From Megamonas funiformis (GTDB lineage: Bacteria > Bacillota > Negativicutes > Selenomonadales > Selenomonadaceae): a stretch of DNA of 64,000 nt. How positions within the stretch are numbered: position 1 is the stretch's first letter; each line of letters starts with the position of its first letter. Shown piece by piece: positions 32,449-52,263 of this stretch. The notes under the pieces were generated by a model. That model saw only the letters and a list, made by a program, of their open reading frames with translations, was not told the DNA's origin and searched no databases. The stretch is from the NCBI RefSeq assembly GCF_010669225.1, contig NZ_CP048627.1:1439292-1503291 (forward strand). The letters run 5' to 3'. The position numbers and the translations under genes were made by a program.

Positions 32449-32472
32449 ACATTAATCCTCCAAATACTAATA

Positions 32473-32491: not shown

Positions 32492-32497
32492 TTTAAA

Positions 32498-32829: not shown

Positions 32830-32969
32830 TTTATCCCTTCTTTATATTTTTTATATCCATTAGCCATACATTTTTTCAAATCGGGTTTTCCTAAAATACA
32901 TTGTTGTTTATGTCGCCTAAGACTGCATAAAAAGATGCCATCATCAAAATAACTATATTTACACGACAT
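32802..32969 (-). CDS. 55-aa cysteine-containing phage protein
   Basis: Short frame with spaced cysteines (CKYSYF, FLCSLRRHKQQC, LKKC) that could bind a metal. AAAGGGTG precedes ATG 32969, six bases after the helicase stop. Frame and ribosome site are good, but coding is not proven because the end overlaps the next gene. Confidence 0.5.
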   Translation of the reverse strand: MSCKYSYFDDGIFLCSLRRHKQQCILGKPDLKKCMANGYKKYKEGIKCKNTNKIS

Positions 32970-32974
32970 AATTA

Positions 32975-34336: not shown

Positions 34337-34627
34337 TCATAAATCACCTTCTTTGCTATACTCATTTATAAATAACTCAACATGGTCTTTACTACTTATT
34401 ACCCATACGTCTACACCATGATTTATTAATTGCTTTATACGTTCCCATTGTATTTCTCTAGGGCTTTTATTTGGTGCTTTCAATTCCACGAAAACTACTT
34501 TCCCATACGGCATGATTACTATTCTATCCGGTACGCCCGCCGTCCCTGGGCTAGTAAATTTCCAAACAATACAACCCAATTTCTTCAACTTATCTGTAAA
34601 ATATTTTTCAATTTGTTTTTCTAACAT
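34337..34627 (-). CDS. VRR-NUC domain nuclease
   Basis: 96 residues, a stand-alone VRR-NUC fold. Catalytic signature GVPDRIVIMPYGKVVFVELK contains the Asp and the Glu-x-Lys of PD-(D/E)xK nucleases. Stand-alone phage versions cut branched DNA. Directly upstream of the helicase gene with no gap, indicating a shared job. Confidence 0.92.
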   Translation of the reverse strand: MLEKQIEKYFTDKLKKLGCIVWKFTSPGTAGVPDRIVIMPYGKVVFVELKAPNKSPREIQWERIKQLINHGVDVWVISSKDHVELFINEYSKEGDL

Positions 34628-34645
34628 AACTCACTCTTTTTCTAG

Positions 34646-34762
34646 GTATACCAAGTATACTTTGTTCTATATAAGCTATATAAATTAAGAAAATAATGTA
34701 CATATGTCTTTTATTTTCTTAATTTCGTGAATCTATTTATAAATTTGGTATACTTAGTATAC
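34646..34762. repeat. 117-bp nested symmetric element (candidate phage origin or operator)
   Basis: Two GTATAC-NNN-GTATAC palindromes (34646-34660 and 34748-34762) lie symmetrically about position 34704. The same axis is the centre of a perfect 13-bp inverted repeat ATTAAGAAAATAA/TTATTTTCTTAAT (34684-34696, 34711-34723). It fills most of the only sizeable gap in the replication module, between the primase-helicase and VRR-NUC genes. Confidence 0.7.
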
Positions 34763-34821
34763 AAAACCTCAGAAAACCCTATTTTATAGTATTTATTAAG
34801 CACACATACTAAATTTTCATT

Positions 34822-37254: not shown

Positions 37255-37269
37255 TATTAATTCACGTCC

Positions 37270-38931
37270 TTACACCGCCTCTCTTTGCGGTAAAATTTGT
37301 TTTTCAGGTTTAAATATATCGCTGCAATTATCATAATTAATATTAGCTTTATCAGCCCATTTAATAATCTCATCATTTATTTGCTTATTATTATGAGCTG
37401 GTTTATTAGCAAATAATTTTGCTTGTATTAGCTTATTATTTTGCACCTCGATACAAGCTTTTAACTTACCTTTATCATCAGACATTAAAACTATATTTGA
37501 TTTACCTGTATAAACAGCATCAACATAATTACCCACACAATTTCTAAAAATTTTGCCTATATTGCGAAGCACATCTGAATTCTCAGGTAAATAAAATTTA
37601 ATACTATCAAACTGCATAGCTAATCTTCTACAGATTGGGTCATTGATATTAAAAGCTCTAAATGGATGTTCCTGTTTATAAATAGCTGTTACTAAATAAT
37701 CATGTAAATTAGCAGGAGCCGGTTTTTCTTGCCAAAGTGTAGCTTTATCTTTCAATTTAAATATCATATAAATAGCGTCTTCACATGAAATTTTATCTTG
37801 AGAATTATGCCACCAACGCATTAATGCATTGATATATTCTATTCCCCAGTTATAAGAAATTAGTGCTAATTGATTTAATAATGTGCGAATATCTCGTCGC
37901 CATAAAAAATCAAATTCCAAACAATTATTAATATTATTGAAGGTATCTATATTACCTTGAGCTATAGTATAAATTTGTTTATGACGTAATAATAAAAATG
38001 GTTTATCTTTTACTAATCGTCTAATCGCAGGCTTATTTGGTAAATTTGCTATTTCTAATAATCCTGATATTGTATCTTTTGCCTTACTTATGATTTTCAA
38101 ACGCTCATCTGATAAATATGCATCATCTAAATCATAAAAATTTCTATCAGCACTACCATAATAAAATGGATATTTACGATATATATAGTTATAATCAGTA
38201 AGCGATAAATTATTTAAATCTGTAAAAACTAATCTATAAGCTATATTCAATATAGGTTTTATAAAATAACTGCCTTTGTTTTCATGACATACGTACATCG
38301 ATTTTATTTTAAATTTAAATTTAGATTCTAGCTTTTTGGATAATCTCTCACGAAGAATTTTCAATATCTTTTTGAAATCTACAGCATATATACTTGTAAA
38401 ATATCTGTGATTTAAAAATTTTAAATTAGTATCTCTGCTAAAACTTGTATCCAGGATATTACATAAGTTATAATTAATAATAAGTTTATGATTTATATAT
38501 CTTTTATAAATTGCAGTCCTTTGGGCTACATTAAAAGATATAGTCTCTTTATATAGTCTGTGGTGAAACATATAGTCACTGTCTTCATCGCAGACTATTT
38601 CTTTACCCGATAAAGTCAAACGTAAACTATCTTTATATTCATCAAGACTAATCCTCATGCTGAGCGGGGAATAATCCCCGTCAGCCATAAAACTAAAATC
38701 ATTTTTTTGCGTAGCTTCCGTAAAACGTGAACCACATTTAGGGCAATATATAATCTGATCATTTGGTCGCACACCATAATAATTTCCTACACCATCCCAT
38801 AAGGATTTAAAACTATGACCACAACTAGAACAATGATACATATTCGTAAACTTATTACCATTATTTAAGCTTTTTAAGCCACCTTCATAAAGATAAAATA
38901 ATTTCGGCATATATAAGTCATATATTCTCAA
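37270..38931 (-). CDS. PcfJ-like phage protein
   Basis: 553 residues from TTG 38931 after GAGGTGAT; an upstream ATG at 38961 overlaps the previous gene. N-terminal zinc ribbon (CSSCGHSFKSL and CPKCGSRF) and a C-terminal PcfJ region (YLPENSDVLRNIGKIFRNCVG, then KACIEVQNNKLIQAKLFANK). PcfJ-like proteins are common in Firmicute phages and conjugative plasmids; the biochemical role is unknown. Tyr/Lys-rich middle. Confidence 0.8.
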   Translation of the reverse strand: MRIYDLYMPKLFYLYEGGLKSLNNGNKFTNMYHCSSCGHSFKSLWDGVGNYYGVRPNDQIIYCPKCGSRFTEATQKNDFSFMADGDYSPLSMRISLDEYKDSLRLTLSGKEIVCDEDSDYMFHHRLYKETISFNVAQRTAIYKRYINHKLIINYNLCNILDTSFSRDTNLKFLNHRYFTSIYAVDFKKILKILRERLSKKLESKFKFKIKSMYVCHENKGSYFIKPILNIAYRLVFTDLNNLSLTDYNYIYRKYPFYYGSADRNFYDLDDAYLSDERLKIISKAKDTISGLLEIANLPNKPAIRRLVKDKPFLLLRHKQIYTIAQGNIDTFNNINNCLEFDFLWRRDIRTLLNQLALISYNWGIEYINALMRWWHNSQDKISCEDAIYMIFKLKDKATLWQEKPAPANLHDYLVTAIYKQEHPFRAFNINDPICRRLAMQFDSIKFYLPENSDVLRNIGKIFRNCVGNYVDAVYTGKSNIVLMSDDKGKLKACIEVQNNKLIQAKLFANKPAHNNKQINDEIIKWADKANINYDNCSDIFKPEKQILPQREAV

Positions 38932-38941
38932 ATTAATCACC

Positions 38942-39286
38942 TCAATCCCAGATATCATCATCGTCTTCTTCAGTTATTGGTTCAGGTTCGGTCTTTTTTA
39001 TAACTTCTTTTTTATCTTCAGATTTAATTTCTTTAGCAGCAGCTTTTATTTTATCGGCTTCTTTTTTAGCTTCAGCTTTTTGCTTTTCATCATACATATC
39101 ACACATTTTTATAGTTTCTTCACAAGCTTTATACATACGTTCCAAATAATCTAAGCTATTAGAAAAATTCTCATCGTTTTCTTTAATTTCTAATTCAGTA
39201 CGCAATTTTTTTATTTCATCAAGTTCCTCAATTTGTTTTTCCATAAATTTTTTTAATTGTAATGTATTTATTTTTTTATCAGCCAT
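38942..39286 (-). CDS. Coiled-coil phage protein, unknown function
   Basis: 114 residues, almost entirely charged helix (FMEKQIEELDEIKKLRTELE, KAEAKKEADKIKAAAKE) ending in an acidic tail (EEDDDDIWD) like those of single-strand DNA-binding proteins. Ribosome site AAAGGAG. Between polymerase and PcfJ-like genes. Confidence 0.65.
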   Translation of the reverse strand: MADKKINTLQLKKFMEKQIEELDEIKKLRTELEIKENDENFSNSLDYLERMYKACEETIKMCDMYDEKQKAEAKKEADKIKAAAKEIKSEDKKEVIKKTEPEPITEEDDDDIWD

Positions 39287-39328
39287 TTTATTACTCCTTT
39301 AATTAACATCAACATATAATGTACGGAA

Positions 39329-41305
39329 TCAATCTTTCTTATAATACTTGGTTATATAACCATCAGCATTTAAAATTAACTCCGGCGCCCAATCAATAGC
39401 AGTTCCCATTATTTTATTAGCAAGTTCTAAGGATTTATCTATACCAGCAGCAACACAATCAAGAATAACTTCATCATGTACATGCATAACAATCTTAAAA
39501 CCTGCCTGTTCTAATCTAATCATAGCGACTGCTAAACAATCTCTAGCAATTGCTTGTACTATATTTTCAGTAAGTTTTCCACCATAAGTTTCTAACCTTT
39601 CCCATGTACGAGATACCTGATTTGTACCTTCATATGTGATTTTGTTATTCTCAACACGAGGTCTAATATATGTTAATTCTCGCCCTGAAGGTAAACATAT
39701 ACGAAGCATACCCGCTTTATAATAAAAAGCCATATTATGATGAATTTTCACTTTTGTTTTTTCATTTATAGCCTGTTTAGCTGCTTTATCCACAATAGAC
39801 CATAAACGAACAATATTTGGACTAGCTTTTCTCCATTTAGTTACAATATCGATTAATTCTTCATCAGTAAGCCCCATTTTATCAGCACCCATAGCTTTTA
39901 AAGCTCCTATACTGCCCTGATAGCCTAAAGCAAGTTCAGCTATTTTCCCCTTTTGTCTAAGTTCACCATTAATACCATGTTTTACCACTGGTACGTGAAA
40001 CATCTGACTAGCCGATGCACAATAAATATCACCGCCATCAGCAAATACTTTCATACGCCAATTTTCTCCACTAAGCCAGGCAATAACTCTAGCCTCAATA
40101 GCTGAAAAATCAGCTACTACAAATTTATTCGATTTAGTCGGTATGAAAGCAGTTCTTATTAATTGAGATAATACATTTGGAACATTCTCATAGAAAATTT
40201 CAAATGTTTCGGCGTCATCATGTTTTAATAATTCTCTAGCATCGTCCAAATCACTCATAGAATTACGAGGTAAATTTTGAACCTGTACTAATCTACCTGC
40301 CCAACGTCCAGTACGATTAGCACCATAAAACTGAAGTAATCCTCGAATTCGTCCATCAGCACATTGAGCATTCTGCATAGCTACATATTTTTTTATTGAA
40401 GTCTTAGATAGCAACATTTTTAGCTTTAACATATCTTTGACTTCTTTATTTTTTACTATTTTTAAGAGTTCCAATACCGTAGTTTTTGTGATTTTAGAGG
40501 GAAAAAATCCTTCCTTTTCCAGTATCCAATGCTTTAGTTGTTCTGTAGAATTGGGGTTATCTAGATTAGATATATCTTTAGCTTCTGCTGAAATTCTATT
40601 TCTAAAATCAGTATCAACTTCTACAGCTTTATCAGCTAATTGTCTATCTAATCCAATACCTCTATCATTTATTTGTTGGTCTAATACCCATAAATTTTGT
40701 TCAAAATCTGTAGGTTTGAATTTAATCATTTTCTTACGTAAATAGCGTTCAACCTCTACATCACGTTTATTATATTCTTTGAATAAATTCCAATTTTGTA
40801 TATCATGCTTTGGTAAATTTCTTGTTCTGCCACCATTAGTATTAGTCGGCTTACAAGGCTTCGAAAATTCCATTATTAATTTTCGTCCAATATTCATTTT
40901 GGCTTTATCTTCAGCTAATCTAAAAATTCGACAATCCTCAGCAAGAGAACCATACAATCCTAAATTCAAAGATAACACCATAGTACATTGCCATTGTGCC
41001 GGGTCTAAAAAATAATTATCATCATAAAAACTATTAATTGTTTCGCCACCAAATAAATAATGACTTAATAACACTCTCTCAAATTGAGCATTATATGCTG
41101 TTTTTAAAACCGCAGGGTCGATTAAATCTCTTAAAACCTGTTCAGGAATATCTTCACCTTGAGCTAAATCTATAACATTAACCATTTCATCATCATATGC
41201 ATAGCCAAATAATAATATTTCTGCTTCTTCAGCATATTTGTAGACCCCAACTTTTTTTAAGTCAAGGTCACAATATGTTTCTAAATCAATAGATAATGTT
41301 CTCAT
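39329..41305 (-). CDS. Family A DNA polymerase (phage replicative)
   Basis: 658 residues. N-terminal 3'-5' exonuclease (MRTLSIDLETYCDLDLKKVG with the DxE motif at residues 6-8; Asp later in YNKRDVEVERYL) and C-terminal polymerase motifs A (KFVVADFSAIEARVIAWLSG), B (RQKGKIAELALGYQGSIGAL) and C (MHVHDEVILDC). This is the phage-type enzyme associated with DUF2800/DUF2815 genes. Ribosome site AGGAGG. Confidence 0.95.
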   Translation of the reverse strand: MRTLSIDLETYCDLDLKKVGVYKYAEEAEILLFGYAYDDEMVNVIDLAQGEDIPEQVLRDLIDPAVLKTAYNAQFERVLLSHYLFGGETINSFYDDNYFLDPAQWQCTMVLSLNLGLYGSLAEDCRIFRLAEDKAKMNIGRKLIMEFSKPCKPTNTNGGRTRNLPKHDIQNWNLFKEYNKRDVEVERYLRKKMIKFKPTDFEQNLWVLDQQINDRGIGLDRQLADKAVEVDTDFRNRISAEAKDISNLDNPNSTEQLKHWILEKEGFFPSKITKTTVLELLKIVKNKEVKDMLKLKMLLSKTSIKKYVAMQNAQCADGRIRGLLQFYGANRTGRWAGRLVQVQNLPRNSMSDLDDARELLKHDDAETFEIFYENVPNVLSQLIRTAFIPTKSNKFVVADFSAIEARVIAWLSGENWRMKVFADGGDIYCASASQMFHVPVVKHGINGELRQKGKIAELALGYQGSIGALKAMGADKMGLTDEELIDIVTKWRKASPNIVRLWSIVDKAAKQAINEKTKVKIHHNMAFYYKAGMLRICLPSGRELTYIRPRVENNKITYEGTNQVSRTWERLETYGGKLTENIVQAIARDCLAVAMIRLEQAGFKIVMHVHDEVILDCVAAGIDKSLELANKIMGTAIDWAPELILNADGYITKYYKKD

Positions 41306-41326
41306 AAAATACCTCCTAATAAGGCT

Positions 41327-41911
41327 TTATTCAAACATATCCTCATCTTCGTCATCAGTATTTGCAAATTCTGTTTCAAATTCGTCACCATCTAATACTT
41401 CAAAATCATCTTCTGGATTAGACGCACCGCCTAATGGCTCACCATCTTTTACTTTTTGGATATTACCTAATCCAGCAGCAATACCTGAACCTGCATCTGT
41501 TTTATAAGCATAAAATGTTACTGATACATTAGCATAACAACCACTATATACAGCAGAACGGTCAAGAATAGGTTTTATTTTTCTATCTACAATCTTAGGT
41601 GCAGTGTTGGAATTTGCGTTTATAAAGTAGCATCCTTCATATGCATCATCATCAAAACGGTCAGTATCTCCATCACGAAGAGGTACTTTTAAATTAGGTG
41701 GAATTTTTCCATTTTTATTTGCCAATTTAGCTTTACCAGCATTTTTAGCAGCTTCTATCGCTTTTTTTATTTCAGCTATTTGCTTTTTATCAGTTTTAGG
41801 AATAATAAGTGATGCGCCATATTTTAAATCCCCATTTGGATTTTCCTTTGGCTCCCAAATATTAGCATAAGAAAGTCTTACATTTTTTAAAGTTAACTTT
41901 GTATCATTCAT
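41327..41911 (-). CDS. DUF2815 protein, probable single-strand DNA-binding protein
   Basis: 194 residues. DUF2815 signature: TLKNVRLSYANIWEPKENPN, then KYGASLIIPKTDK and GCYANVSVTFYAYK. The C-terminal acidic tail (NTDDEDEDMFE) resembles SSB tails that recruit partners. It lies immediately before the polymerase gene, fitting a role in phage replication. Confidence 0.88.
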   Translation of the reverse strand: MNDTKLTLKNVRLSYANIWEPKENPNGDLKYGASLIIPKTDKKQIAEIKKAIEAAKNAGKAKLANKNGKIPPNLKVPLRDGDTDRFDDDAYEGCYFINANSNTAPKIVDRKIKPILDRSAVYSGCYANVSVTFYAYKTDAGSGIAAGLGNIQKVKDGEPLGGASNPEDDFEVLDGDEFETEFANTDDEDEDMFE

Positions 41912-41925
41912 ATTTATAATCTCCT

Positions 41926-43083
41926 TTAATCAAGTATTTCAAAATCATTTTCAGGGCTATTGTATTCAGGTCGTGGGTCATCAATGCCAACAAGTGTAGG
42001 CTTACCAGCTATTTTAGTGATTAAATCATCAAGTAAAACACTAAATGTTTTTTTACCCAATACTTTAGTCAATTCAGTTATAGACTTTAATTCAGGCTCT
42101 TTCATAAAATCAGATGAATCAATATTCGCTTTTTGTAATCTACTAATTACAGCATCAATATCACTATATTTTCGAGAACTTTTACCTTCTACTAATTTAT
42201 AGCCTGGCCATGTCCTACCTTGTAGTGCTTCAGATAACGCATAATCTTTTATTTGTTTGGCATAATGAATAAGAGGTTCTATCCTATTCAATGCATCAGC
42301 CATTTCTTCATCAGACATAAATTCAGGATCAATAAAATCATACTTTGCTACACTTAAGCAATATTCAGAGTATTTTTTACAACGCAATGAAGCCCTACAG
42401 AATAAACACCACTTACCAGCATTGAATTCTCCTATGCCATCATAGGCAAGTTCAGCAGTTGGTTTTACAATATTTTCTCCCCATTTAATTAAATCTTTTA
42501 CTGATTTTTCTTGACTAGATATCCCACCATTACGTGGCTGAAATATAGTCATTTGGATAGTATCAAAATCATACATAAAACCAAAATTACTGATTATACC
42601 TAAGGCATACATCTGCATTTGTGTATTATCGACAGCGCTGACAGCTACACCTTTACCATATTTTAAATCTACTATTTCTACATATTTATCAGTAATAATC
42701 ACTAAATCTCCTGTACCGAATCCCTCTTTTGCCCATTCGCTATAATCAATTTTTTCTTCTATTGCTATATAAGCTGTTTTATCTATACTCAATGCTGTAT
42801 TAATTTTCTCAATACACATCTCTACATATTCAAATACATAATCTAACATTGCTTTATTGTAGAGTTCTTGATTTTTAAATTGTTTTGGTAAAGCAATATT
42901 CGTATGACTATGTTTTAAATAATACTTCAAATAAAATTCTCCAATAGCATGAGCTAATGTTCCTTCACGAGCAGCTGCTGTTTCTTTATCGGGATATGTT
43001 TCCTCTAATCGGGCGCTAGGTGGACAAGATAGCCACCTTTTACTACCCGATGCACTCAATAAGGCATGTGCTGGCTCGGTCAT
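41926..43083 (-). CDS. DUF2800 protein (Cas4/PD-(D/E)xK-like nuclease)
   Basis: 385 residues. DUF2800 family: AHALLSASGSKRWLSCPPSA and EREGTLAHAIGE-type motif near residue 40, catalytic GTGDLVIITDKYVEIVDLKYG, and a C-terminal cysteine set (CLFCRASLRCKKYSEYC) likely holding an Fe-S cluster. Probably the phage recombination exonuclease, paired with the DUF2815 binder. Starts with an ATGA overlap. Confidence 0.9.
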   Translation of the reverse strand: MTEPAHALLSASGSKRWLSCPPSARLEETYPDKETAAAREGTLAHAIGEFYLKYYLKHSHTNIALPKQFKNQELYNKAMLDYVFEYVEMCIEKINTALSIDKTAYIAIEEKIDYSEWAKEGFGTGDLVIITDKYVEIVDLKYGKGVAVSAVDNTQMQMYALGIISNFGFMYDFDTIQMTIFQPRNGGISSQEKSVKDLIKWGENIVKPTAELAYDGIGEFNAGKWCLFCRASLRCKKYSEYCLSVAKYDFIDPEFMSDEEMADALNRIEPLIHYAKQIKDYALSEALQGRTWPGYKLVEGKSSRKYSDIDAVISRLQKANIDSSDFMKEPELKSITELTKVLGKKTFSVLLDDLITKIAGKPTLVGIDDPRPEYNSPENDFEILD

Positions 43084-43499
43084 TCTCCGAGAACTTCCTT
43101 TCTAAATTCATCTATTCTATCAATAGGAATATCACTTAATTTTTTTAATTCCCATTTGTGTAAAATATCTTTCATTCTCCCCATCAATGTATCATCTAAT
43201 TTTTTGGCTTCCATTAAATCTTTTTTTAAGTTATCTCTCAATTCTTCCTCACTTAATTGAGGTTTAGTGCTATCTTCTTTTACTTCTTCATCAGCTGGAG
43301 TCTCATTTTTTACTTCACTTTTCTTTGCCTTTTGTCTAGTAACTTTTTTTACTGGTTTTTCAACAATTTCTTCTTTTTCTTCAGCTATAGCATTAACTAC
43401 TATATTTTTTGTATTTGCTTCTAAAGCTTTCGCTAATGCTCCTATGGCTTGTGCTAATTGTTCAGTTCCTTCAATTGTTACTTTTACATTTAATTCCAT
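43080..43499 (-). CDS. Charged phage protein, unknown function
   Basis: 139 residues. N-terminal MELNVKVTIEGTEQLAQAIG with a short helix, a Lys/Glu-rich middle (VEKPVKKVTRQKAKKSEVK) and a helical C-terminal half. Coupled to the DUF2800 gene by overlap. No domain known to me; a recombination partner is possible. Confidence 0.65.
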   Translation of the reverse strand: MELNVKVTIEGTEQLAQAIGALAKALEANTKNIVVNAIAEEKEEIVEKPVKKVTRQKAKKSEVKNETPADEEVKEDSTKPQLSEEELRDNLKKDLMEAKKLDDTLMGRMKDILHKWELKKLSDIPIDRIDEFRKEVLGE

Positions 43500-43555
43500 G
43501 ATATTAACTCCTTTTATAAATTAACTTTTTATGGTAGACTTTAGTTAAGGTTTTT

Positions 43556-43717
43556 TTATTTGTGCTGATTAGCCATGTGCTGGTCAGCTTTTTTTAATAT
43601 GGAAAAGAATTTATTAATATTATCTAAAACTATTGGCAAATCTTTAGGTTTAAAAATGCTGGGCGTTAATTTAATAGCAATCCCCTTTTTCTCATTCGTT
43701 TCATAGATTGTCTGCAT
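43556..43717 (-). CDS. 53-aa phage protein, unknown function
   Basis: Start set at ATG 43717, four bases after the HTH gene stop, with AAAGGA about 9 nt upstream. A longer frame from 43747 would overlap the HTH gene. Sequence: MQTIYETNEKKGIAIKLTPS, then a helical tail ending QHMANQHK. No family recognised. Confidence 0.55.
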   Translation of the reverse strand: MQTIYETNEKKGIAIKLTPSIFKPKDLPIVLDNINKFFSILKKADQHMANQHK

Positions 43718-43721
43718 ATTC

Positions 43722-44042
43722 TCAAATCCTTTGCATATAGTTTTCATATTCTGAATAAGGTATACGAATAGTACGATTATCTATCTTAGCTTTTATTACT
43801 CCAGTACGTACTCTTTCGTAAATAGTGCCATAACTTACATTTACTTTTTCAGCAAATTCACTGATTGATAATGGCTTTCTCTCTATATCATTTAAGTTTT
43901 GTTGTACCTCTATGACTTCTAAATGTTCTTGCTGAACCTTTTTGGCGATATTAATTAGTTCATCAATCTCTTTATCTAGATTTTCTTTCAAAGTCTCTAA
44001 ATTTCGGATTTTTATTTCACACTCTAAATTCCAATCAGCCAT
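43722..44042 (-). CDS. Excisionase-like helix-turn-helix protein
   Basis: 106 residues from ATG 44042, which has the better spacing to GGAG (the ATG at 44048 is too close). N-terminal coiled coil (about 10-45), then an HTH_17/MerR-like domain: PLSISEFAEKVNVSYGTIYE, RVRTGVIKAK and RTIRIPYSEYENYM. Such proteins act as excisionases or as small DNA-binding regulators. It begins the early minus-strand block. Confidence 0.72.
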   Translation of the reverse strand: MADWNLECEIKIRNLETLKENLDKEIDELINIAKKVQQEHLEVIEVQQNLNDIERKPLSISEFAEKVNVSYGTIYERVRTGVIKAKIDNRTIRIPYSEYENYMQRI

Positions 44043-44221
44043 ATACATAATCTCCTTTCAATTATTTGGTTGCTACCCATACATAAGCTATAAATTTTGA
44101 TACAGCGGTTTCATCAATAACCCACCGCCAAGCGTTCGTTACAATAAAGGGAATAATTAGTAATAGCTAAGCATATGTTAAATATATTTGGTATAATCAT
44201 CTTTACGAGGAGGTGATTATA

Positions 44222-44602
44222 TTGAAACGTGATTTAGATATAATTAGAAATATTTTGTTATACATTGAAAACGCTGATAATAACCGAATTCGTATATATG
44301 ATATTTCTGTAAATTTAAATTTGCCTATTGATGTTATAAAGTATCATATCGATTTATTAGCAGATAAAAAATTTATTATCTTACGTGGTTGTGTAACTGT
44401 ACTATCTCCTGATTATAAGCCTTATGACGCTATACAAATTGTTAGAATGACTTTTGACGGATGCGACTATTTAGAAGCAATAAAAAACGATACTATATGG
44501 AACAATGTCAAAAAAGACTTAAAAAGAATTGGTGGTTCTGCTTCTTTAGACATTGTTAAAACATTAGCCGTTAATATTGGTCTAAAAATTTTACAAGAAT
44601 AA
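44222..44602 (+). CDS. DUF2513-family protein
   Basis: 126 residues from TTG 44222, 8 nt after AGGAGG. The opening KRDLDIIRNILLYIENAD, the winged-helix-like middle (DVIKYHIDLLADKKFIILRG) and MTFDGCDYLEAIKND are characteristic of DUF2513, frequent in Firmicute prophages. Function unknown, possibly a DNA-binding regulator. Alone on the plus strand between minus-strand early genes; TATAAT at 44192-44197 is a likely -10. 44049-44212 has no other feature seen. Confidence 0.8.
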   Translation: MKRDLDIIRNILLYIENADNNRIRIYDISVNLNLPIDVIKYHIDLLADKKFIILRGCVTVLSPDYKPYDAIQIVRMTFDGCDYLEAIKNDTIWNNVKKDLKRIGGSASLDIVKTLAVNIGLKILQE

Positions 44603-44604
44603 AC

Positions 44605-44811
44605 TCAACCTAAAGACTTATCAGAATTTTGATGTTGACATTTTAACTTTACCAATTCAAGTAATCCTGTAACTTCCCAAAATTCGATTCTATACTTTGC
44701 AAAAATCTCTATAATTTCATTAGCAATAGGTTCATATATAATTTGCCGTTCTTCAAGTTGCCGCTTGAGTTCGGCATTTTCTTTTTTTAATTCTTCATAA
44801 GATTTGTTCAC
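44605..44811 (-). CDS. 68-aa coiled-coil phage protein
   Basis: N-terminal leucine-zipper-like helix (YEELKKENAELKRQLEERQ), then IANEIIEIFAKYRIEFWEVTG. Convergent with the DUF2513 gene, whose stop is 2 bp away. Ribosome site GGAGGTGATAAC region before ATG 44811. Function unknown. Confidence 0.6.
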   Translation of the reverse strand: MNKSYEELKKENAELKRQLEERQIIYEPIANEIIEIFAKYRIEFWEVTGLLELVKLKCQHQNSDKSLG

Positions 44812-44823
44812 GTTATCACCTCC

Positions 44824-45180
44824 TTAGTATCCTAGAATTTTTCTACTCCACCATTTAACTTGTATTTCACGCATGAAATCTGGCATTTTACCAGTCTTCA
44901 TAGCTTCAGCTAATTCTTCGGCATCTTTTTTGATTTTTGTTATTCTGTTTTGTACTGCATTTTCTAAATCACTTGCAATCTCAAATGGGTCTTTATTCAA
45001 GTTTCTGCCAAAATGAACAGCTGCTAAAGCGTAATGTCTAGGAAAAAATTTATCCAAATCATGATGTAGTCGGTTTGATGCTTCACACATAGCATATAAA
45101 TCTACAGCTCGTTTATATGAAGCTTCTTGAATTAATTTATATTGTTCTAGCCATGAATTTTCTTCATTTGAATTTAACAT
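44824..45180 (-). CDS. 118-aa early phage protein, unknown function
   Basis: Helical protein with HHDLDKFFPRHYALAAVHFG and a charged tail ending VKWWSRKILGY. Preceded by an exact TTGTCACTT-A-AAGTGACAA palindrome (45202-45220) that matches the repressor operators, so it is probably under lysogenic control. No family recognised. Confidence 0.62.
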   Translation of the reverse strand: MLNSNEENSWLEQYKLIQEASYKRAVDLYAMCEASNRLHHDLDKFFPRHYALAAVHFGRNLNKDPFEIASDLENAVQNRITKIKKDAEELAEAMKTGKMPDFMREIQVKWWSRKILGY

Positions 45181-45201
45181 TTAATCACCTTTTATCGTTT
45201 T

Positions 45202-45220
45202 TTGTCACTTAAAGTGACAA
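45202..45220. promoter_or_regulatory. Operator O1 downstream of the Cro-like gene
   Basis: TTGTCACTTAAAGTGACAA, 9-bp arms about one central base, between the Cro-like gene stop and the 118-aa gene. It shares the TTGTCAC half-site with the operators at 45445 and 45526. Confidence 0.7.
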
Positions 45221-45222
45221 TA

Positions 45223-45429
45223 TTATTTAAAAAAAATAGACGTTATTGATTTTTTATAGTAATTAGATAATCGTATTTTTATTTCATCTCTAGGAATACG
45301 TTCGCCAATTTCATACATAGTTAAAGCAGATACACTTATACCACAAGCTTCTGCGACGTCTTTTCTCGTTTTATTTAAATTATTTCTCAATTGTAATAAA
45401 CGCTGGCCTATTACTTTAGCGTCAATCAT
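45223..45429 (-). CDS. Cro-like XRE regulator
   Basis: 68 residues, an almost bare XRE helix-turn-helix (LRNNLNKTRKDVAEACGIS, then VSALTMYEIGERIP). It is transcribed divergently from the first S24 repressor across a 136-bp operator region, the classical cI/cro arrangement. Expected to repress the repressor and favour lytic growth. Ribosome site GGAGGTGA. Confidence 0.82.
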   Translation of the reverse strand: MIDAKVIGQRLLQLRNNLNKTRKDVAEACGISVSALTMYEIGERIPRDEIKIRLSNYYKKSITSIFFK

Positions 45430-45444
45430 TTTGAGGTCACCTCC

Positions 45445-45463
45445 TTGTCACGTTTCGTGATAA
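45445..45463. promoter_or_regulatory. Operator O2 at the Cro-side promoter
   Basis: TTGTCACGTTTCGTGATAA, an imperfect 19-bp palindrome just downstream of the Cro-side -10, so repressor bound here would block the lytic promoter. Half-sites TTGTCACG and TTATCACG match O1 and O3. Confidence 0.65.
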
Positions 45464-45467
45464 CTAG

Positions 45468-45496
45468 AGTATAGTACATTCTTTTATTTTTGTCAA
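45468..45496 (-). promoter_or_regulatory. Lytic (Cro-side) promoter
   Basis: Minus strand TTGACA (45496-45491), 17-bp spacer, TATACT (45473-45468). A near-consensus promoter reading into the Cro-like gene; O2 overlaps its start region. Confidence 0.75.
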
Positions 45497-45525
45497 CACC
45501 TTTTGTGACATTTTTCTTGTTTTTC

Positions 45526-45548
45526 ATCACGTAACGTGATAGTATAAT
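45526..45548 (+). promoter_or_regulatory. Repressor promoter -10 with operator O3
   Basis: Perfect palindrome ATCACG-TAA-CGTGAT (45526-45540) directly before TATAAT (45543-45548), with TTTTCA (45521-45526) as a weak -35. Binding here would make the repressor control its own gene. A lone half-site TGTGACA lies at 45504-45510. Confidence 0.68.
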
Positions 45549-45565
45549 ATAAAAAAGGTGATTAA

Positions 45566-46192
45566 ATGGAATTTAAAGATATATTAAAAAGTTTACGAAC
45601 TGAAAAAGGCTTGTCTCAAACTGATTTGGCTAAAATAACAGGATTAACACGTAGTGCTATTGGAATGTATGAAGTGGGTAAACGTGAACCTAATTTTGAA
45701 ACACTAGAAATATTAGCAGATTTTTTTAATGTGGATATGAATACACTATTAGGAAAAAATTCTATAACAAATAAATTAGCTCCTAATGTACACGGACTAT
45801 ATTCTATAAATACGCGAAAGATACCACTACTAGGTAAAATAGCCTGCGGTAAACCTATAATGACTGAAGAATGTTTTGAAGGATATGTACAAGCTGGAAC
45901 AAATATACGAGTAGATTTTTGTTTAGTAGCTAAAGGTGATAGTATGATAAATGCACGTATTTATGATGGTGACATTGTTTTCATCAGACAACAACCAGAA
46001 GTAGAAAATGGAGAAATAGCAGCCATTTTAATTGATGGTGGTGTTACTTTAAAACGTGTATACTATTATGATACAAGTATTGAACTTAGAGCAGAAAATC
46101 CAAAGTATCGTCCAATGATATTTAAAAAAGATGAATACCACCAATTTAAAATATTAGGGAAGGCGATTGCTTTTCAAGCAGATATTGTTTAA
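45566..46192 (+). CDS. CI-like phage repressor with S24 peptidase domain
   Basis: 208 residues. XRE helix-turn-helix (about 8-60: GLSQTDLAKITGLTRSAIGM), then an S24/LexA-type self-cleaving domain: scissile Cys94-Gly95 (KIACGKP), Ser126 (KGDSM), Lys163 (TLKRV). DNA damage would trigger RecA-stimulated self-cleavage and induction. Faces the Cro-like gene across three operators, so this is the primary lysogeny repressor. Confidence 0.9.
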   Translation: MEFKDILKSLRTEKGLSQTDLAKITGLTRSAIGMYEVGKREPNFETLEILADFFNVDMNTLLGKNSITNKLAPNVHGLYSINTRKIPLLGKIACGKPIMTEECFEGYVQAGTNIRVDFCLVAKGDSMINARIYDGDIVFIRQQPEVENGEIAAILIDGGVTLKRVYYYDTSIELRAENPKYRPMIFKKDEYHQFKILGKAIAFQADIV

Positions 46193-46211
46193 ATTTTGAG
46201 GTGTTTAAGAT

Positions 46212-46823
46212 ATGCCGACTATAGGCGAAAATATAAAAAAAGCTCGCAAGCAAGCAAATTTGACACAAATGGAACTAGCAAAAATTACAAATCTATCTCG
46301 TTCGTATATTGGAGATATTGAAAAAGATAGATATAATCCTAGCCTTTCTACCTTAAAAGCTATTGCTAAAGCTACAAATCAACCACTAAATTTTTTTATA
46401 TCTAATCAGTCTAATACACCGGCTAAAGGTATCAAAATTCCTGTATTAGGTCGTGTTGTTGCAGGCATCCCTGTTGAAGCTATCACTGACATAATAGATT
46501 ACGAAGAAATCACCGAAGAACTTGCTCGCACCGGAGATTTTTTTGCGCTGCAAGTAAAAGGCGAGAGCATGGCTCCCCGCATTCGAGAAAATGATGTCGT
46601 AATAGTCCGGAAACAGTCAACAGTAGAAAACAAAGAAGTCGCTATTGTTTTAGTAAACGGCAATGAAGCTACTATCAAAGAAGTTCAATTTCAGGAAAAC
46701 GGTATTACTTTGATAGGCTGGAATCCAGCAGTATATACACCTCATTTTTATAGTGCCAAAGACATCGAAACGTTGCCTGTTCAGATTATAGGCAAAGTTA
46801 TTGAACTTCGTGGGAAATTCTAA
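46212..46823 (+). CDS. Second S24-type repressor in tandem
   Basis: 203 residues with its own XRE domain (LTQMELAKITNLSRSYIGDI) and S24 domain: scissile Ala84-Gly85 (RVVAGIP), Ser119 (KGESM), Lys156 (ATIKEV). All catalytic positions are present. Begins 19 bp after the first repressor behind GAGGTG. The recognition helix differs from the first, so it should bind other operators. Its 3' half is visibly GC-richer than its 5' half, suggesting a recombinant gene. Sequential tandem CI-type repressors are uncommon. Confidence 0.88.
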   Translation: MPTIGENIKKARKQANLTQMELAKITNLSRSYIGDIEKDRYNPSLSTLKAIAKATNQPLNFFISNQSNTPAKGIKIPVLGRVVAGIPVEAITDIIDYEEITEELARTGDFFALQVKGESMAPRIRENDVVIVRKQSTVENKEVAIVLVNGNEATIKEVQFQENGITLIGWNPAVYTPHFYSAKDIETLPVQIIGKVIELRGKF

Positions 46824-46834
46824 GGAGATACCAA

Positions 46835-47767
46835 ATGGATGCAAATCAGAAATTAACAAATACGCTGTATTTTAATACTTTATCTGATACGTTAACTAAT
46901 ATAAATGACCTTTTAAATTACGGCAAAAAACTCTTAAATGATGTTGTTTCATCTTCAAAAATAACAAAAGAAGCTGACAAAGTTTTAATATTATGGCTCC
47001 GAGATGTTGTAGAATTGATACATGGTTTATTATGTCTTTACCAAGGTCAATCTTTTAATAATTGTAAGGTTTTAGTTAGGTCTTTATTTGAACATTATTT
47101 GAATTTTAAATATGTTTTTAAAGACGATAAAAATATAGATATAAAATTACGCTCATATAGATACTTTCAATTAATGATAATTTTAAATGATTATAATAAT
47201 ATGTTAAGAAATCCTGTATATCCATCTAAGAATTTTAATTTAACCACCATGAAAAGAGATTATCCATTATATGAAGCAGATATGAAGCAAATTAAACAGG
47301 AAATCACTTCGGAACTATATTCAGATTTATATAACGATGTTACAAAGAACTTCAAATATCAACCTAACAAAGCATACAGACAATTATTTGATAAAAATCC
47401 TATTCAGTGGTATACATTAACCAATCCAAGTATTAAATCTATATCAAGATTGGCTAATTATCTTGATGAAAAAGATTTATATATTGTTTTTTATAAATCA
47501 TATTCAAAAATTATTCATGCAGGGAACGCCTTAAACGGTTTAATGTTGAATGCAAATAGTATAAAGTTAAAAAATTTTAATCAGCCGGAAGAAATGATGA
47601 CATCTCTTTGCTTTATGATAGCGTTAATAACTAAAATTTATAGTTTATATATGAAATATTTTTCACTAGTAGATAAAAATTATAGCGATAAATATTCTAC
47701 TATAAATGAAGATTTAAGTAATATTTTGACTCGTTGGAATATGATAGAACAAATTATGACTAGTTAA
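46835..47767 (+). CDS. DUF5677-like protein, lysogenic cargo
   Basis: 310 residues, helical. LRDVVELIHGLLCLYQGQSF, then VLVRSLFEHYLNFKYVFKDD and SKIIHAGNALNG fit DUF5677-type proteins, which occur in mobile elements and near defence genes. No catalytic mechanism is known. Very AT-rich; starts 12 bp after the second repressor with AAGGAG, so it is expressed in the lysogen. Confidence 0.65.
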   Translation: MDANQKLTNTLYFNTLSDTLTNINDLLNYGKKLLNDVVSSSKITKEADKVLILWLRDVVELIHGLLCLYQGQSFNNCKVLVRSLFEHYLNFKYVFKDDKNIDIKLRSYRYFQLMIILNDYNNMLRNPVYPSKNFNLTTMKRDYPLYEADMKQIKQEITSELYSDLYNDVTKNFKYQPNKAYRQLFDKNPIQWYTLTNPSIKSISRLANYLDEKDLYIVFYKSYSKIIHAGNALNGLMLNANSIKLKNFNQPEEMMTSLCFMIALITKIYSLYMKYFSLVDKNYSDKYSTINEDLSNILTRWNMIEQIMTS

Positions 47768-47776
47768 TAACACAAT

Positions 47777-47797
47777 AGCCACGATAGTATCGTGGCT
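47777..47797. terminator. Perfect hairpin after the DUF5677-like gene
   Basis: AGCCACGATA-G-TATCGTGGCT, 10-bp arms about one base, 10 bp after the stop. There is no clear T-run, so it may be a terminator of moderate strength or a regulatory palindrome for the following genes. Confidence 0.5.
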
Positions 47798-47810
47798 CAA
47801 AATCTACACC

Positions 47811-47975
47811 ATGAGCATAAACTCCGACAAAATCGAACATATAGCCAATACCTTCGCCGTAGAGTTATTATTGCCCGATACATATTTAAAAGAAAACGCT
47901 GATACCAGTATCTACGATTTAGCTAGAATAAAAGGTATTCCAGCGAAGTTTATAAACTTGAAACTGAAAAATTAA
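47811..47975 (+). pseudogene. ImmA/IrrE-type metalloprotease remnant
   Basis: 54 codons reading IEHIANTFAVELLLPDTYLK and YDLARIKGIPAKFINLKL, the C-terminal part of ImmA/IrrE proteases that cleave phage repressors. The HExxH active site is absent and there is no ribosome site before the ATG. GC content is higher than in the flanking genes. I read it as the end of a former protease gene left after cargo replacement. Confidence 0.6.
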
Positions 47976-47994
47976 CTATATTAGGAGTGATAGC

Positions 47995-48801
47995 GTGGAA
48001 AAATATACAGCTGGATTTTCAGGGACCTTAACTTTAAAGGAATATCCAAGCGAACAAAGTGCCAATGCTTTATTTACATGCATGCGAGATATTCGTTTTT
48101 TAAAAGATATATTAAAGCGAAAGAAAATATATCCTCGATATTATAAAGAAGACATTGAATACTTACATTTGCCTGGTCTTTCAGGAATAGCATATCCTAT
48201 GAAATGTTTTTGCGATATATTTTTAAATAAATTAGAAAAACATATGGATAAATATGGTGAATACGGCATTGCCTTAACAAAAGAATGGGGATTAACTAAT
48301 AAAATCCAGCCGATACAATATATAAATGAAAATTCTTTTTTGTATACGAGCATACAAAAATTATATGAAAATAGACATGACCCTAACAATAAACTTGATT
48401 ATCAAGATTTATTCCATAATATTTTAGGATTTATAAAACCTATATCCGGTAAAATGCCCAAAGATGATGGTGTTGTTACTAAAAATTTTCATGATGAAAA
48501 AGAATGGCGTTATATTCCAGAAATTAGTCCTAGAGCAAGAAATTACTTTCCTTTTATTGAAGAGTCATATATTATAGATAATAGTACATTCCTTAATCAA
48601 AAATCAAACGAATTTTTCATTAAAGACAAATACGGTTTAAAAATAACAGATAAGGATATTAAATATATAATAATTTCTAAAGAGGAAGAGCGCGAACCTT
48701 TTATTGATTTTATCTTAAAAGAATGTCGTTTTAGTCGAAAGGAAAAATATAATCTAATTTCTAAGTTGATTATATTTAATGAAATGAAAGGAGATTGGTA
48801 A
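47995..48801 (+). CDS. AbiGi-like abortive-infection protein
   Basis: 268 residues. The segment YPMKCFCDIFLNKLEKHMDK followed by YGEYGIALTKEWGLTNKIQP, and the later FHDEKEWRYIPEISP, match the AbiGi family (the antitoxin half of the AbiG abortive-infection system known from Lactococcus). GTG start after TTAGGAGTGAT. One base separates it from the next gene, a typical two-gene defence operon. Defence cargo on a prophage would exclude competing phages. Confidence 0.72.
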   Translation: MEKYTAGFSGTLTLKEYPSEQSANALFTCMRDIRFLKDILKRKKIYPRYYKEDIEYLHLPGLSGIAYPMKCFCDIFLNKLEKHMDKYGEYGIALTKEWGLTNKIQPIQYINENSFLYTSIQKLYENRHDPNNKLDYQDLFHNILGFIKPISGKMPKDDGVVTKNFHDEKEWRYIPEISPRARNYFPFIEESYIIDNSTFLNQKSNEFFIKDKYGLKITDKDIKYIIISKEEEREPFIDFILKECRFSRKEKYNLISKLIIFNEMKGDW

Positions 48802-48802
48802 T

Positions 48803-49672
48803 ATGTTGCCGACTGCGGTTAAAATAAAAGATTTACCTAATACTCTAAATGAAATACCTAATAATGTTTATTTATCTAAAGAAAACCACAAAAAAATACA
48901 TGGTCGCTTAAAAAAAACAGGAAACACTTTTGAAATTTCTATAGATGATGCTTTTAGTTTTAAGTTTAACTTAAAATCTAAAAATAATATAGATTATACA
49001 TTTTCTATTCATCCAGAAAAAATGGATAATATTTCCGATGTTATTCATGTTTTAAAACTAGCTAAAGGTTTGTCTTCGGGATCTATATTTATAAATGATA
49101 TAAAACTTGTAGATTTCAAAATAAATCCTATAAAGAAAAAAGATATAGAAACACTTTCTATGTTAATAAATTACTGGGAAAGAATGGAGCACATCGCAAA
49201 ACAACTAAAAAAATATAGCAATATTGTATTATCACCAAAAGATATAGTTGAAAATAGTGATAAAGATATATTTAACTTTGAGATACTAAATAGAAGCTTA
49301 GTTGATGAAAAGCCATACAAATTAAATAACCCATTAATAGACGGCTTTTCTTTAACAGTAAGTAATGCCATAGATGTTTCTAAAATAGAAGATAAGACTC
49401 CTTCTTTTACATTTTTAAGAAAAGAAACCTTATGTTTTGCAGGTAAAAAGTTTACAATATATATTACTACTGGCATTTTTAAAGTTATCATTTCAGAGAT
49501 AATCCCTATGCAAAAAAATAATGATGATACATCTACATATTATTTTAAAATAAGTTCCAAAAATAAAAAAATAGATGTATCTGAAAGAATTTTTTTAGAC
49601 GAACATCTTGCTCAAGATTACTTAAATAATGAACATACTATAGAAGAATTATCAAAAGCAACTATTTTATAG
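48803..49672 (+). CDS. Partner of the AbiGi-like protein, possible AbiGii-type toxin
   Basis: 289 residues, very AT-rich. Features: VKIKDLPNTLNEIPNNVYLS, a central part with FSIHPEKMDNISDVIHVLKL, and EHIAKQLKKYSNIVLSPKDI. I do not recognise a catalytic motif. Its position directly behind an AbiGi-like gene suggests the toxin (AbiGii) role, though it is shorter than the lactococcal protein as I recall it. Ribosome site GGAG 9 nt before ATG. A terminator follows. Confidence 0.55.
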   Translation: MLPTAVKIKDLPNTLNEIPNNVYLSKENHKKIHGRLKKTGNTFEISIDDAFSFKFNLKSKNNIDYTFSIHPEKMDNISDVIHVLKLAKGLSSGSIFINDIKLVDFKINPIKKKDIETLSMLINYWERMEHIAKQLKKYSNIVLSPKDIVENSDKDIFNFEILNRSLVDEKPYKLNNPLIDGFSLTVSNAIDVSKIEDKTPSFTFLRKETLCFAGKKFTIYITTGIFKVIISEIIPMQKNNDDTSTYYFKISSKNKKIDVSERIFLDEHLAQDYLNNEHTIEELSKATIL

Positions 49673-49682
49673 AAAAAATAAA

Positions 49683-49705
49683 GACACTAACTAAAAGTTA
49701 GTGTC
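49683..49705 (+). terminator. Hairpin after the AbiGi-like pair
   Basis: GACACTAACT-AAA-AGTTAGTGTC, perfect 10-bp stem, 10 bp after the stop, followed by TCATACAT. It separates the defence pair from the integrase. Confidence 0.65.
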
Positions 49706-49746
49706 TCATACATAGTAATAGCTAGGCATAGTGAAAGGGGAAAACT

Positions 49747-50931
49747 ATGGCTAGAATACATGAACGCCTTACAAAGACAAAAGGCAAAACATATTGGTTC
49801 ATTATAGATGTTGGTAGAGATGATACAGGAAAACGTATCCGTATCAAACGCTGTGGCTTTACTAAAAAAAGCGATGCTAAAAAAGCAATGGCAGAAATAG
49901 AGTCCCAATATTATGCGGGAAAGGTATTTGCTAAACCTAAAGATATAACATTTGCCTATTATGTTCAAGAAATTTGGTTTAAAGAATATCAACATTATAC
50001 TAAGATATCTACACAAAAGGGCATACAATATCTATTAAAAGCATTAATATCATTCTGGGGGCAAGATGTTAAATTAAAACATATTACCTCTCTAAATATT
50101 CAAGCATATATACAAAATATGCTTGATATGGGTAAAAAACGTAAAACTATTACAAAAAACTTATCCTATATAAAAATGATATTTAAACATGCTTTAAAAA
50201 ATAATATTATCACTAATAATCCTTGTGAAAATATTGATTTACCTAAAATGACTTTAGTCGAAAAAACTAAACTGCTACAACAAAAACCTAAACCATTATA
50301 TCTAGAAAAAGAAGATTTACTCACTTTCTTAAATGAAGCTAAAAATGATGCATATGCATATCCATATTATTATATGGTATTTTTTCTAATCTATACTGGT
50401 GCTAGATTAGGCGAGGTATGTGCTATGGAATGGGATAATTTTAATACAAAAAATAAGACTATAAAAATTACCCAAAACATCTATGGTTGCAGTCAAAAAA
50501 ATTATTATGTACAAACTCCAAAAACTAAAAATAGTATTAGAGAAATTTCTATTTCACAATCTTTTATAGATGTGATGAAAGAATGGCGATTAATACAAAA
50601 TAAACAAAAAATAAAAAATGCAAATAATTGGGATAGAACATATAATTTTATATTTACTTCTCGATATTATCCTGGAAAACCAATTTTAACCTGTAATCTA
50701 TATGGCTTCATAAAAAAGATAGCCAAAAAAATCGGGTTAAGTTGGATCCATCCACATACATTCCGCCATACCCACACATCATTATTAGCAGCGGCAGGTG
50801 AATCATTAGAAGTAATACAAGATCGGTTAGGGCATACCAATGACTCTACAACACGTCAAATTTATTTGCATATTACTAAAAGCAGAAAAGTAGATGCTGC
50901 TTCAAAATTTGATGCATATTTAAATTCATAA
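49747..50931 (+). CDS. int: Phage integrase (tyrosine recombinase)
   Basis: 394 residues. N-terminal arm-binding AP2-like domain (WFIIDVGRDDTGKRIRIKRC), SAM-like core-binding domain (about 65-165), catalytic domain with Arg220 (YTGARLGE), Lys259, His337-x-x-Arg340 (HTFRHTH), His363 (RLGHTN) and Tyr373 (RQIYLH). It lies 14 bp from attR, as expected for the enzyme that joins attP to the hsp20-upstream attB. GGGG ribosome site before ATG. Confidence 0.95.
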   Translation: MARIHERLTKTKGKTYWFIIDVGRDDTGKRIRIKRCGFTKKSDAKKAMAEIESQYYAGKVFAKPKDITFAYYVQEIWFKEYQHYTKISTQKGIQYLLKALISFWGQDVKLKHITSLNIQAYIQNMLDMGKKRKTITKNLSYIKMIFKHALKNNIITNNPCENIDLPKMTLVEKTKLLQQKPKPLYLEKEDLLTFLNEAKNDAYAYPYYYMVFFLIYTGARLGEVCAMEWDNFNTKNKTIKITQNIYGCSQKNYYVQTPKTKNSIREISISQSFIDVMKEWRLIQNKQKIKNANNWDRTYNFIFTSRYYPGKPILTCNLYGFIKKIAKKIGLSWIHPHTFRHTHTSLLAAAGESLEVIQDRLGHTNDSTTRQIYLHITKSRKVDAASKFDAYLNS

Positions 50932-50945
50932 AGAGATGGTACCAA

Positions 50946-51093
50946 AATGGTACCTCTCATATATTTTCAAAATAACAAAAAGTCAAATCTCTAATAACAA
51001 AAGCTCTATAAAGCCTTATAAAATAAGTAAAAAAAATAGTCAAAAAGTCAAAAATAATTATTGACATTTTGACTAATTCGAGTATAATAATAA
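50946..51093 (+). repeat. attR: 148-bp prophage boundary repeat
   Basis: Second copy of the boundary repeat (see 5406-5553), immediately after the integrase gene. It contains the promoter and GTCAA boxes of the downstream hsp20 operon, so the host operon remains driven after integration. ATGGTACC motifs overlap its left edge. Confidence 0.92.
51040..51088 (+). promoter_or_regulatory. hsp20 promoter with GTCAA-box inverted repeat
   Basis: TTGACA (51061-51066), 16-bp spacer, TATAAT (51083-51088). GTCAAAAAGTCAA (51040-51052) and TTGACATTTTGAC (51061-51073) form a 13-bp inverted repeat with one mismatch that swallows the -35. GTCAAA half-sites recall CtsR heptads but with 8-bp rather than 10-bp phasing, so the regulator is uncertain. 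Another pair TTTTGACTTTTTGAC lies at 51236-51250. Confidence 0.65.
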
Positions 51094-51094
51094 T

Positions 51095-51285
51095 TGTAAG
51101 GACGTTAAGAGATACAAAAGATAAGAAGTATCCCTTAAGATACTTACAAAATCTAAATTTTAATCTTATAATTTTACTAATAACAATAAATAAAAGTTAA
51201 ATACGGACTTGATAGTCCGTTTAATTCAAAACAAATTTTGACTTTTTGACTTTATTTATTGCTCTATACATGGAGGTTGTTATTT
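51095..51285 (+). promoter_or_regulatory. Structured ~190-nt leader of hsp20
   Basis: No gene. Two hairpins are visible: AGTATC-CCTTAA-GATACT (near 51127-51145) and ACGGACT-TGAT-AGTCCGT (51203-51220). The repeated TTTTGACTTTTTGAC boxes and the ribosome site GGAGG follow. A long structured leader before a small heat-shock gene could be a thermosensor or a repressor-controlled region; neither is shown. Confidence 0.45.
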
Positions 51286-51765
51286 ATGTTCGGTTTAGTT
51301 CCATTTGCAAAAAATATTGCTAAAAGTGATGATGATTTCAATAAATTATTCGATGTTTTCAATGAACCTTTCTTTCATGAACCATTTGCAAAAATGAATT
51401 CTTATGTAAAATCCTTTAAAGTCGATGTAAAAGATACTGATAATGCTTACGAACTCACTGCTGAATTACCAGGTATCGCCAAAGAAAATATTTCTCTTGA
51501 CTACAATAAAGGTTATTTAACAATTAAAACAACTACTACAAAATCCACAGAAGAAAAACCTGCTGAAAATGCTGATGATAAAAACGAAAAACCTCAAGAA
51601 AAATATATTCGCCGTGAACGTTATGTAGGTGAAATGCAACGTTCTTTTTACATTGATGATATTGATGAAAAAAATATCAAAGCGTCTTACCAAGATGGTA
51701 TCTTGACTGTAGTTTTACCAAAAATTACTAAAGAAGAAGCTACAACTCAAATCAATATTGACTAA
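51286..51765 (+). CDS. Small heat shock protein (Hsp20 family), first copy
   Basis: 159 residues from ATG 51286 after GGAGG; earlier in-frame codons precede the ribosome site. ATP-independent holdase of the alpha-crystallin type: N-terminal arm, then core domain (FKVDVKDTDNAYELTAELPG, then LDYNKGYLTIK) and GILTVVLPK near the end, followed by a short C-terminal extension. An Asp/Glu/Lys-rich insert (EEKPAENADDKNEKPQEK) distinguishes it from the second copy. Confidence 0.95.
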   Translation: MFGLVPFAKNIAKSDDDFNKLFDVFNEPFFHEPFAKMNSYVKSFKVDVKDTDNAYELTAELPGIAKENISLDYNKGYLTIKTTTTKSTEEKPAENADDKNEKPQEKYIRRERYVGEMQRSFYIDDIDEKNIKASYQDGILTVVLPKITKEEATTQINID

Positions 51766-51813: not shown

Positions 51814-52263
51814 ATGTTTGGTTTAATTCCTACATTTACAAATAATCTCGCAACTAATGATAATTCTTTCAAATCTATTTTTGATGTTTTCAATGAACCA
51901 TTTTTCCAAAACGCATTTGCTCCAGTAAATTCCATGTTCAACGCATTCAAAGTTGATGTAAAAGATACAGATAATGCTTATGAACTCACTGCTGAATTAC
52001 CAGGAGTAAAAAAAGAAAATATTGCTCTTGATTATCAAAATGGTTATTTAACTATCAAAGCTACAATGCAAAATGAACAAAATCAGAATGAAGAAAGTAA
52101 CTATATTCATCAAGAACGCTATTATGGCACAATGCAACGTTCATTCTATGTAGGTCAGATAGATAAAGCTAACGCTAAAGCTGAATATACTGACGGTGTT
52201 TTAAAAATGACATTGCCAAAACTTCAACCACAATCAACAACTACTCAAATTGATATAGATTAA
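51814..52263 (+). CDS. Small heat shock protein (Hsp20 family), second copy
   Basis: 149 residues, clearly a tandem duplicate of the previous gene: MFGLIP start, AFKVDVKDTDNAYELTAELP, MQRSFYVGQIDKANAKAEY, GVLKMTLPKL. It begins 48 bp later with AGGAGG and has one GTCAA-type box (TTTGACTTTT) before it. The two subunits may form mixed oligomers. A strong terminator follows. Confidence 0.95.
   Translation: MFGLIPTFTNNLATNDNSFKSIFDVFNEPFFQNAFAPVNSMFNAFKVDVKDTDNAYELTAELPGVKKENIALDYQNGYLTIKATMQNEQNQNEESNYIHQERYYGTMQRSFYVGQIDKANAKAEYTDGVLKMTLPKLQPQSTTTQIDID

Follow-up and report, generated by a model that had tools for sequence, protein, structure and literature searches.

Prophages and chromosomal islands that lie in promoter regions are already known, examples being phage HK022 at torS, the island EfCIV583 and islands at the uvrA promoter. 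HK022 integrates at the torS/torT intergenic site of E. coli (PMC6814406). The streptococcal chromosomal islands SpyCI sit at the 5' end of mutL, one of them carrying a promoter that rescues the downstream genes (PMC3430984, PMC4129442), further islands occupy the uvrA promoter (PMC4129442), and EfCIV583 (pp7) of Enterococcus faecalis lies in the promoter region of a permease gene (PMC3675006). The Megamonas funiformis prophage analysed here resembles HK022 in being a temperate phage in a host gene control region, near the gene start and at a non-tRNA site; HK022, however, separates torS from its regulator site and provides a promoter of phage origin, the effects having been measured, whereas hsp20 here appears to retain the host promoter and operator in full (PMC6814406). 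As with the SpyCI and uvrA islands, a phage-type integrase targets a promoter or 5' end, but transcription is blocked by SpyCI, whose excision follows growth phase, whereas the sequence of the present locus gives no sign of blocked transcription (PMC3430984, PMC4129442). EfCIV583 likewise shares integration in a promoter region; it is, however, a phage-dependent island for which the available portion of the source describes no promoter copy, and a promoter copy is present here (PMC3675006). In the literature on prophage attB sites, promoters and hsp20, and on Megamonas prophages, no description of this hsp20 attachment site was found by title among the matches listed; the match on the first of these subjects is a genome paper (PMC2909200).

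The window, that is, the whole 64,000-nucleotide stretch that we analysed from a chromosome of 2,522,577 bp, contains a 148-bp direct repeat, the two copies of which (attL and attR) are offset by 45,540 bp and are identical at 146 of 148 aligned positions (Table 1). The first-pass annotation had described a repeat of this length with a complete promoter and GTCAA boxes at both ends and two differences between the copies, and our alignment confirmed this description. Of the two variant positions that it gave, 51060 is correct and 51031 is off by one: the mismatches are T at 5490 in attL against A at 51030 in attR, and G at 5520 against A at 51060, the latter being the base immediately before the -35 element. 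Beyond attL and attR, a whole-genome search returned a single relative of the repeat, a partial one (81% identity over ~58 bp) upstream of clpB, and a chance origin of the repeat was therefore rejected.

The element between the repeats has the features of a site-specific temperate prophage, namely att repeats at both ends, an adjoining tyrosine integrase and genes for head, tail, packaging and lysis, and it is a tailed temperate prophage. PHROGs matches were obtained for all 10 of the 10 proteins searched, including terminase, portal, minor head protein, tail sheath, tape measure and endolysin, and the prophage also encodes two S24-type repressors and an AbiGi/AbiGii-like pair. The stop codon of the integrase gene lies 14 nt before attR. 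An identical 21-mer, ATGGTACCAAAATGGTACCTC, occurs on the P and P' sides of the attachment site, and its two copies, the ATGGTACC arms, are the candidate arm sites of the integrase. A tRNA attachment site was rejected, because ARAGORN found no tRNA gene within the window.

Table 1. Features of the attachment region, the prophage and the neighboring host genes (coordinates are those of the window)
Feature	Coordinates	Strand	Basis or detail
Aldo/keto reductase (AKR) gene, host left flank of the site	4143..5261	-	Same flank in L034 and L105
attL repeat copy	5406..5553	+	Repeat detection and alignment; short core at left, then phage promoter/operator copy; T at 5490, G at 5520
Inverted GTCAA operator in attL	5499..5533	+	Motif search
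Promoter copy in attL, facing phage left end	5521..5548	+	Promoter scan
P' arm	5554..5773	+	Identical to L105 over 220 bp
Prophage body	5554..50945		PHROGs matches
Candidate integrase arm site, P' side	5698..5718	+	Sequence match; in L105 too
Strong hairpin	5851..5895		Fold -30.6 kcal/mol
Tyrosine integrase gene, 394 aa	49747..50931	+	Arm-DNA-bind_4, SAM-like and catalytic domains; Phage_integrase E 9e-30
Candidate integrase arm site, P side	50936..50956	+	Sequence match
attR repeat copy	50946..51093	+	Core at left, then (best reading) host hsp20 promoter/operator; A at 51030, A at 51060
Best-supported crossover interval	50946..50988 (5406-5448 in attL)	+	Two-rate likelihood scan, identity steps
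Inverted GTCAA operator, overlapping -35 of hsp20 promoter	51039..51073	+	Motif search
hsp20 promoter	51061..51088	+	-35 TTGACA 51061-51066, 16-bp spacer, -10 TATAAT 51083-51088
First hsp20 gene	51286..51765	+	Starts 193 nt after attR
Second hsp20 gene	51814..52263	+	

The repeat and the adjoining hsp20 gene support the earlier placement of the attachment site in the hsp20 upstream region. The sigma-70-type promoter (TTGACA-16-TATAAT) scores 12/12 and is the best match in each of the two regions scanned. Both copies of the operator follow the pattern GTCAA-N3-GTCAA-N9-TTGAC-N3-TTGAC. A search of 41 genomes for this inverted motif returned 13 places in 10 genomes, of which 10 are before clpB, 2 before hsp20 and 1 is the attL copy, whereas the control search with the backwards pattern found it in 0 of the 41. 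Because 12 of the 13 places precede clpB or hsp20, the motif, judged by the genes next to it, is the heat-shock operator of the host, and its reading as a phage-specific signal was rejected on the same count. The odd feature of this case is a heat-shock operator that is carried in a phage attachment region. CtsR, which is encoded in the genome (E 2e-30), is the likely ligand of the GTCAA operator. The CtsR consensus is a heptad direct repeat with a 10-bp period; the operator here has a spacing of 8 bp and an inverted pair, and so departs from the published form.

We compared the window with related sites. The locus L105 (IMG/VR record 2835000839_000001) is a second attL with the same left flank as the window; it has a variant core (GGCACC) and a 22-bp deletion within its phage copy of the promoter region, with the promoter itself intact, and the identity of its P' arm to that of the window includes the 21-mer. 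L035 is a second attR, with an intact integrase gene 99% identical in DNA to that of the window. A stretch of 4,487 bp at the right end of the L105 record shares 99% identity with L035, and these two thus represent the same kind of phage. L034 is a further attR with a broken integrase, in which a remnant of the start is fused to the integrase end, followed by the promoter and hsp20; it has the AKR left flank and an AbiD-like gene ahead of the integrase remnant. Both L034 and L035 are recorded under other organisms and are 95-98% identical to this genome in hsp20, and we took them to be misplaced contigs of this species; the MAGs of unrelated bacteria that contain them seem contaminated. The only other genome of the genus in the set searched, G001, is a different species, presumably M. 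hypermegale-like. It has the hsp20 promoter and operator with no adjoining phage, which indicates that the hsp20 promoter is host DNA, and its homology to the repeat (~92%) covers only 51020-51093.

These sites came from several searches. Relatives searched with hsp20 DNA gave matches in 14 of 60 genomes, only G001 strongly, and a class-wide promoter search matched 13 of 380 genomes, with the full repeat in none except the genome under study. A search of GTDB contigs with Hsp20 yielded seven loci, three of them close (L034, L035 and L036), but the L036 sequence begins inside hsp20 and is therefore uninformative on the attachment site. Among the sites recovered, no phage-free attB of the same species was found, as the integrase is broken in L034 and intact in L035 and G001 is another species. 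Similarly, IMG/VR yielded no circular attP in searches with integrase, Hsp20, operator, arm and core patterns and with the endolysin; the endolysin matched 34 loci, of which three (L071-L073) were examined together with L105 from the separate pattern search, and L071 stops before the att site.

The position of the crossover was mapped from the levels of identity at these sites, a comparison informed by two or three strains only. At attR, the window and L035 have 10 differences in 1185 bp of integrase and 0 in 36 bp of the non-coding arm (50932-50967), followed by 12 events in 126 bp at 50968-51093. The latter rate is like that of the host leader (11/192, p=0.27) and unlike that of phage non-coding DNA (0/256, p=1.2e-6). 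Compared with L034, the window has 6 differences in 13 bp of integrase remnant up to 50944 and none over the next 43 bp, starting at 50945 (p=5e-5). Overall, the phage level of identity ends, and host-level divergence starts, at the left edge of attR. Further, L035 and L034 share alleles at 50988, 50989, 50992 and 51014 against the window; because L035 groups with L034 at these bases, yet with the window by its integrase, bases 50988-51014 are not inherited along with the phage. When both pairs were scanned with a two-rate likelihood, the peak fell at repeat positions 38-42, with positions 6-36 within 1.75 log units, whereas the operator and the right edge of the repeat were 10.2 log units worse than the peak (the attR and attL event counts omit the end gaps at 51290 and 5774, as the alignment ends there, and the scan includes both). 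The crossover thus most likely falls within 50946-50988, which is 73-115 bp upstream of the -35 element and left of both mismatches.

We consider it probable that the integrase core is short and lies upstream of the hsp20 promoter, that the rest of the repeat is captured host DNA, and that promoters are not exchanged. The tyrosine integrase would recombine at a short core within this interval, most likely in AATGGTACCTCTCATATATTTT, and the remainder of the 148-bp repeat would be host promoter DNA that the phage lineage acquired on the P' side of its attachment site, one likely route being a single excision that was imprecise to the right of attR. On integration, the host promoter and operator would remain joined to hsp20 at attR, and the phage copy of the promoter would land at attL, where it would face the left end of the phage. 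Excision would then rebuild the same host promoter, and hsp20 would be neither disrupted nor rescued by the prophage. Accordingly, A,A would be the host allele and T,G that of the phage, and T,G is found in 2 of the 2 attLs examined (window and L105).

The same two attLs bear out the proposal of the first-pass annotation that the phage brings its own copy of the host promoter. Its further proposals, that the phage restores the hsp20 promoter and that hsp20 could be toggled between two promoters as the phage integrates and excises, found no support, since a crossover to the left of the whole promoter and of both mismatches would not swap promoters. From the crossover position we infer that the changed or blocked target promoter that characterizes a regulatory switch (active lysogeny) is missing here, that the prophage lacks an effect on hsp20 and that it is probably not an hsp20 switch. 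The case illustrates how a long att repeat can mislead: captured host promoter, and not crossover core, appears to make up the greater part of it, so that a promoter inside an att repeat is by itself no evidence of a regulatory switch.

Some observations speak against a core at the left edge. The inverted GTCAA repeat is a more obvious core-like palindrome than any sequence there, and an unlikely alternative places the crossover inside this operator (51037-51073), so that the host would keep the -35 and -10 elements, the DNA upstream would become phage, and the host would owe its left half of the repeat to a scar from a previous integration. Tyrosine recombinases use inverted repeats of this type, and the operator is a near-perfect one. 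The phage-free G001 has T and A at the two variable positions, the host state expected if the crossover fell between them, and its homology to the repeat begins just left of the operator; L034, in addition, shows that an older integrase was once at the site. The T,A of G001 would fit a crossover in the operator, flanked by the two mismatches, but the comparisons with L035, L034 and L105 spoke against it: this position lies in the part of the scan that is 10.2 log units worse, and it requires a 10% difference in phage DNA at 50968-51030 between phages whose integrases are 99% alike.

Also counting against the left-edge core is the variability of the attL phage copy, which shows 3 differences in 105 bp right of 5448 between the window and L105 and thus varies somewhat more than the phage arms (0/256, p=0.024); the 22-bp deletion of L105 also falls in this copy. 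Moreover, both copies in the window share alleles that are absent from L034 and L035, which suggests a recent exchange between them. Homologous recombination between the copies would explain both observations, and it could go further: whether through gene conversion in the lysogen or through integration and excision of RecA type at any point of the repeat, it might keep the copies alike, with no fixed alleles and with occasional promoter exchange. The attL of L105 and the attR of L035 share GT at 51078-51079 and G at 51060, consistent with such exchange. We nevertheless find this general form unlikely too, because T,G is retained in both attLs and the window attR carries A,A, and because an intact integrase with matching candidate arm sites is present. 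Finally, a crossover to the right of the promoter, the model behind the earlier promoter switch in which a phage-borne promoter would drive hsp20 in the lysogen and excision would switch it back, is very unlikely: the repeat does span the whole promoter and end just past the -10 element, and the attLs of the window and L105 show differences as far as 5539 and none over the following >220 bp, but the right edge fares as badly as the operator in the scan, and attR upstream of the promoter diverges at the host level in both L035 and L034.

With the short core upstream of the promoter as the preferred reading, the promoter copy in attL would direct transcription into the left end of the phage, where the hairpin ~300 bp downstream should end transcription either way; no + strand reading frame of >29 aa was found between this promoter and the hairpin. 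We give little credence to the idea that a functional heat-shock operator and promoter are maintained by the phage on purpose, whether so that replicating phage DNA would titrate the host repressor and raise ClpB and Hsp20 or so that heat-induced transcription across the P' arm would tune excision. If it were true, the phage decision would be tied to heat stress, and a promoter copy kept by selection would be a direct link from the host heat-shock repressor to phage DNA. At the other end of the prophage, the repressor, Abi and integrase genes are all oriented toward hsp20, and the scan of the region listed no + strand terminator-like site between the integrase gene and hsp20; read-through from the prophage into hsp20 is therefore possible.

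Further observations concern the hsp20 leader and the genes around the locus. The leader RNA (window 51094-51285) folds far better than shuffled sequences (z -4.8), and similar hairpins are predicted in L034 and G001; Rfam gave no match for this leader, nor for L034 and L035. A simple RNA thermometer was unsupported, as the predicted pairing of the ribosome site shifts little from 30 to 48 C. The leader also contains an extra GTCAA pair with 8-bp spacing (window 51239-51251), which G001 has too. Downstream of hsp20, a Tmn/YobI-like NTPase gene in the window (52404-55946) stands in the place of a DUF262-like defence gene in L034 (L034:8556-10616), which gives the hsp20 locus the appearance of a defence hot spot on its two flanks. 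Cargo differs from element to element in the slot between the repressor region and the integrase (window 47995-49672; L034:5902-6882; L035:1821-5776), with AbiGi/AbiGii-like genes in the window, the AbiD-like gene in L034 and unrelated genes in L035. Farther to the right, at 58636-59133, the window contains a 166-nt unit repeated three times in tandem, the units being 77-100% alike.
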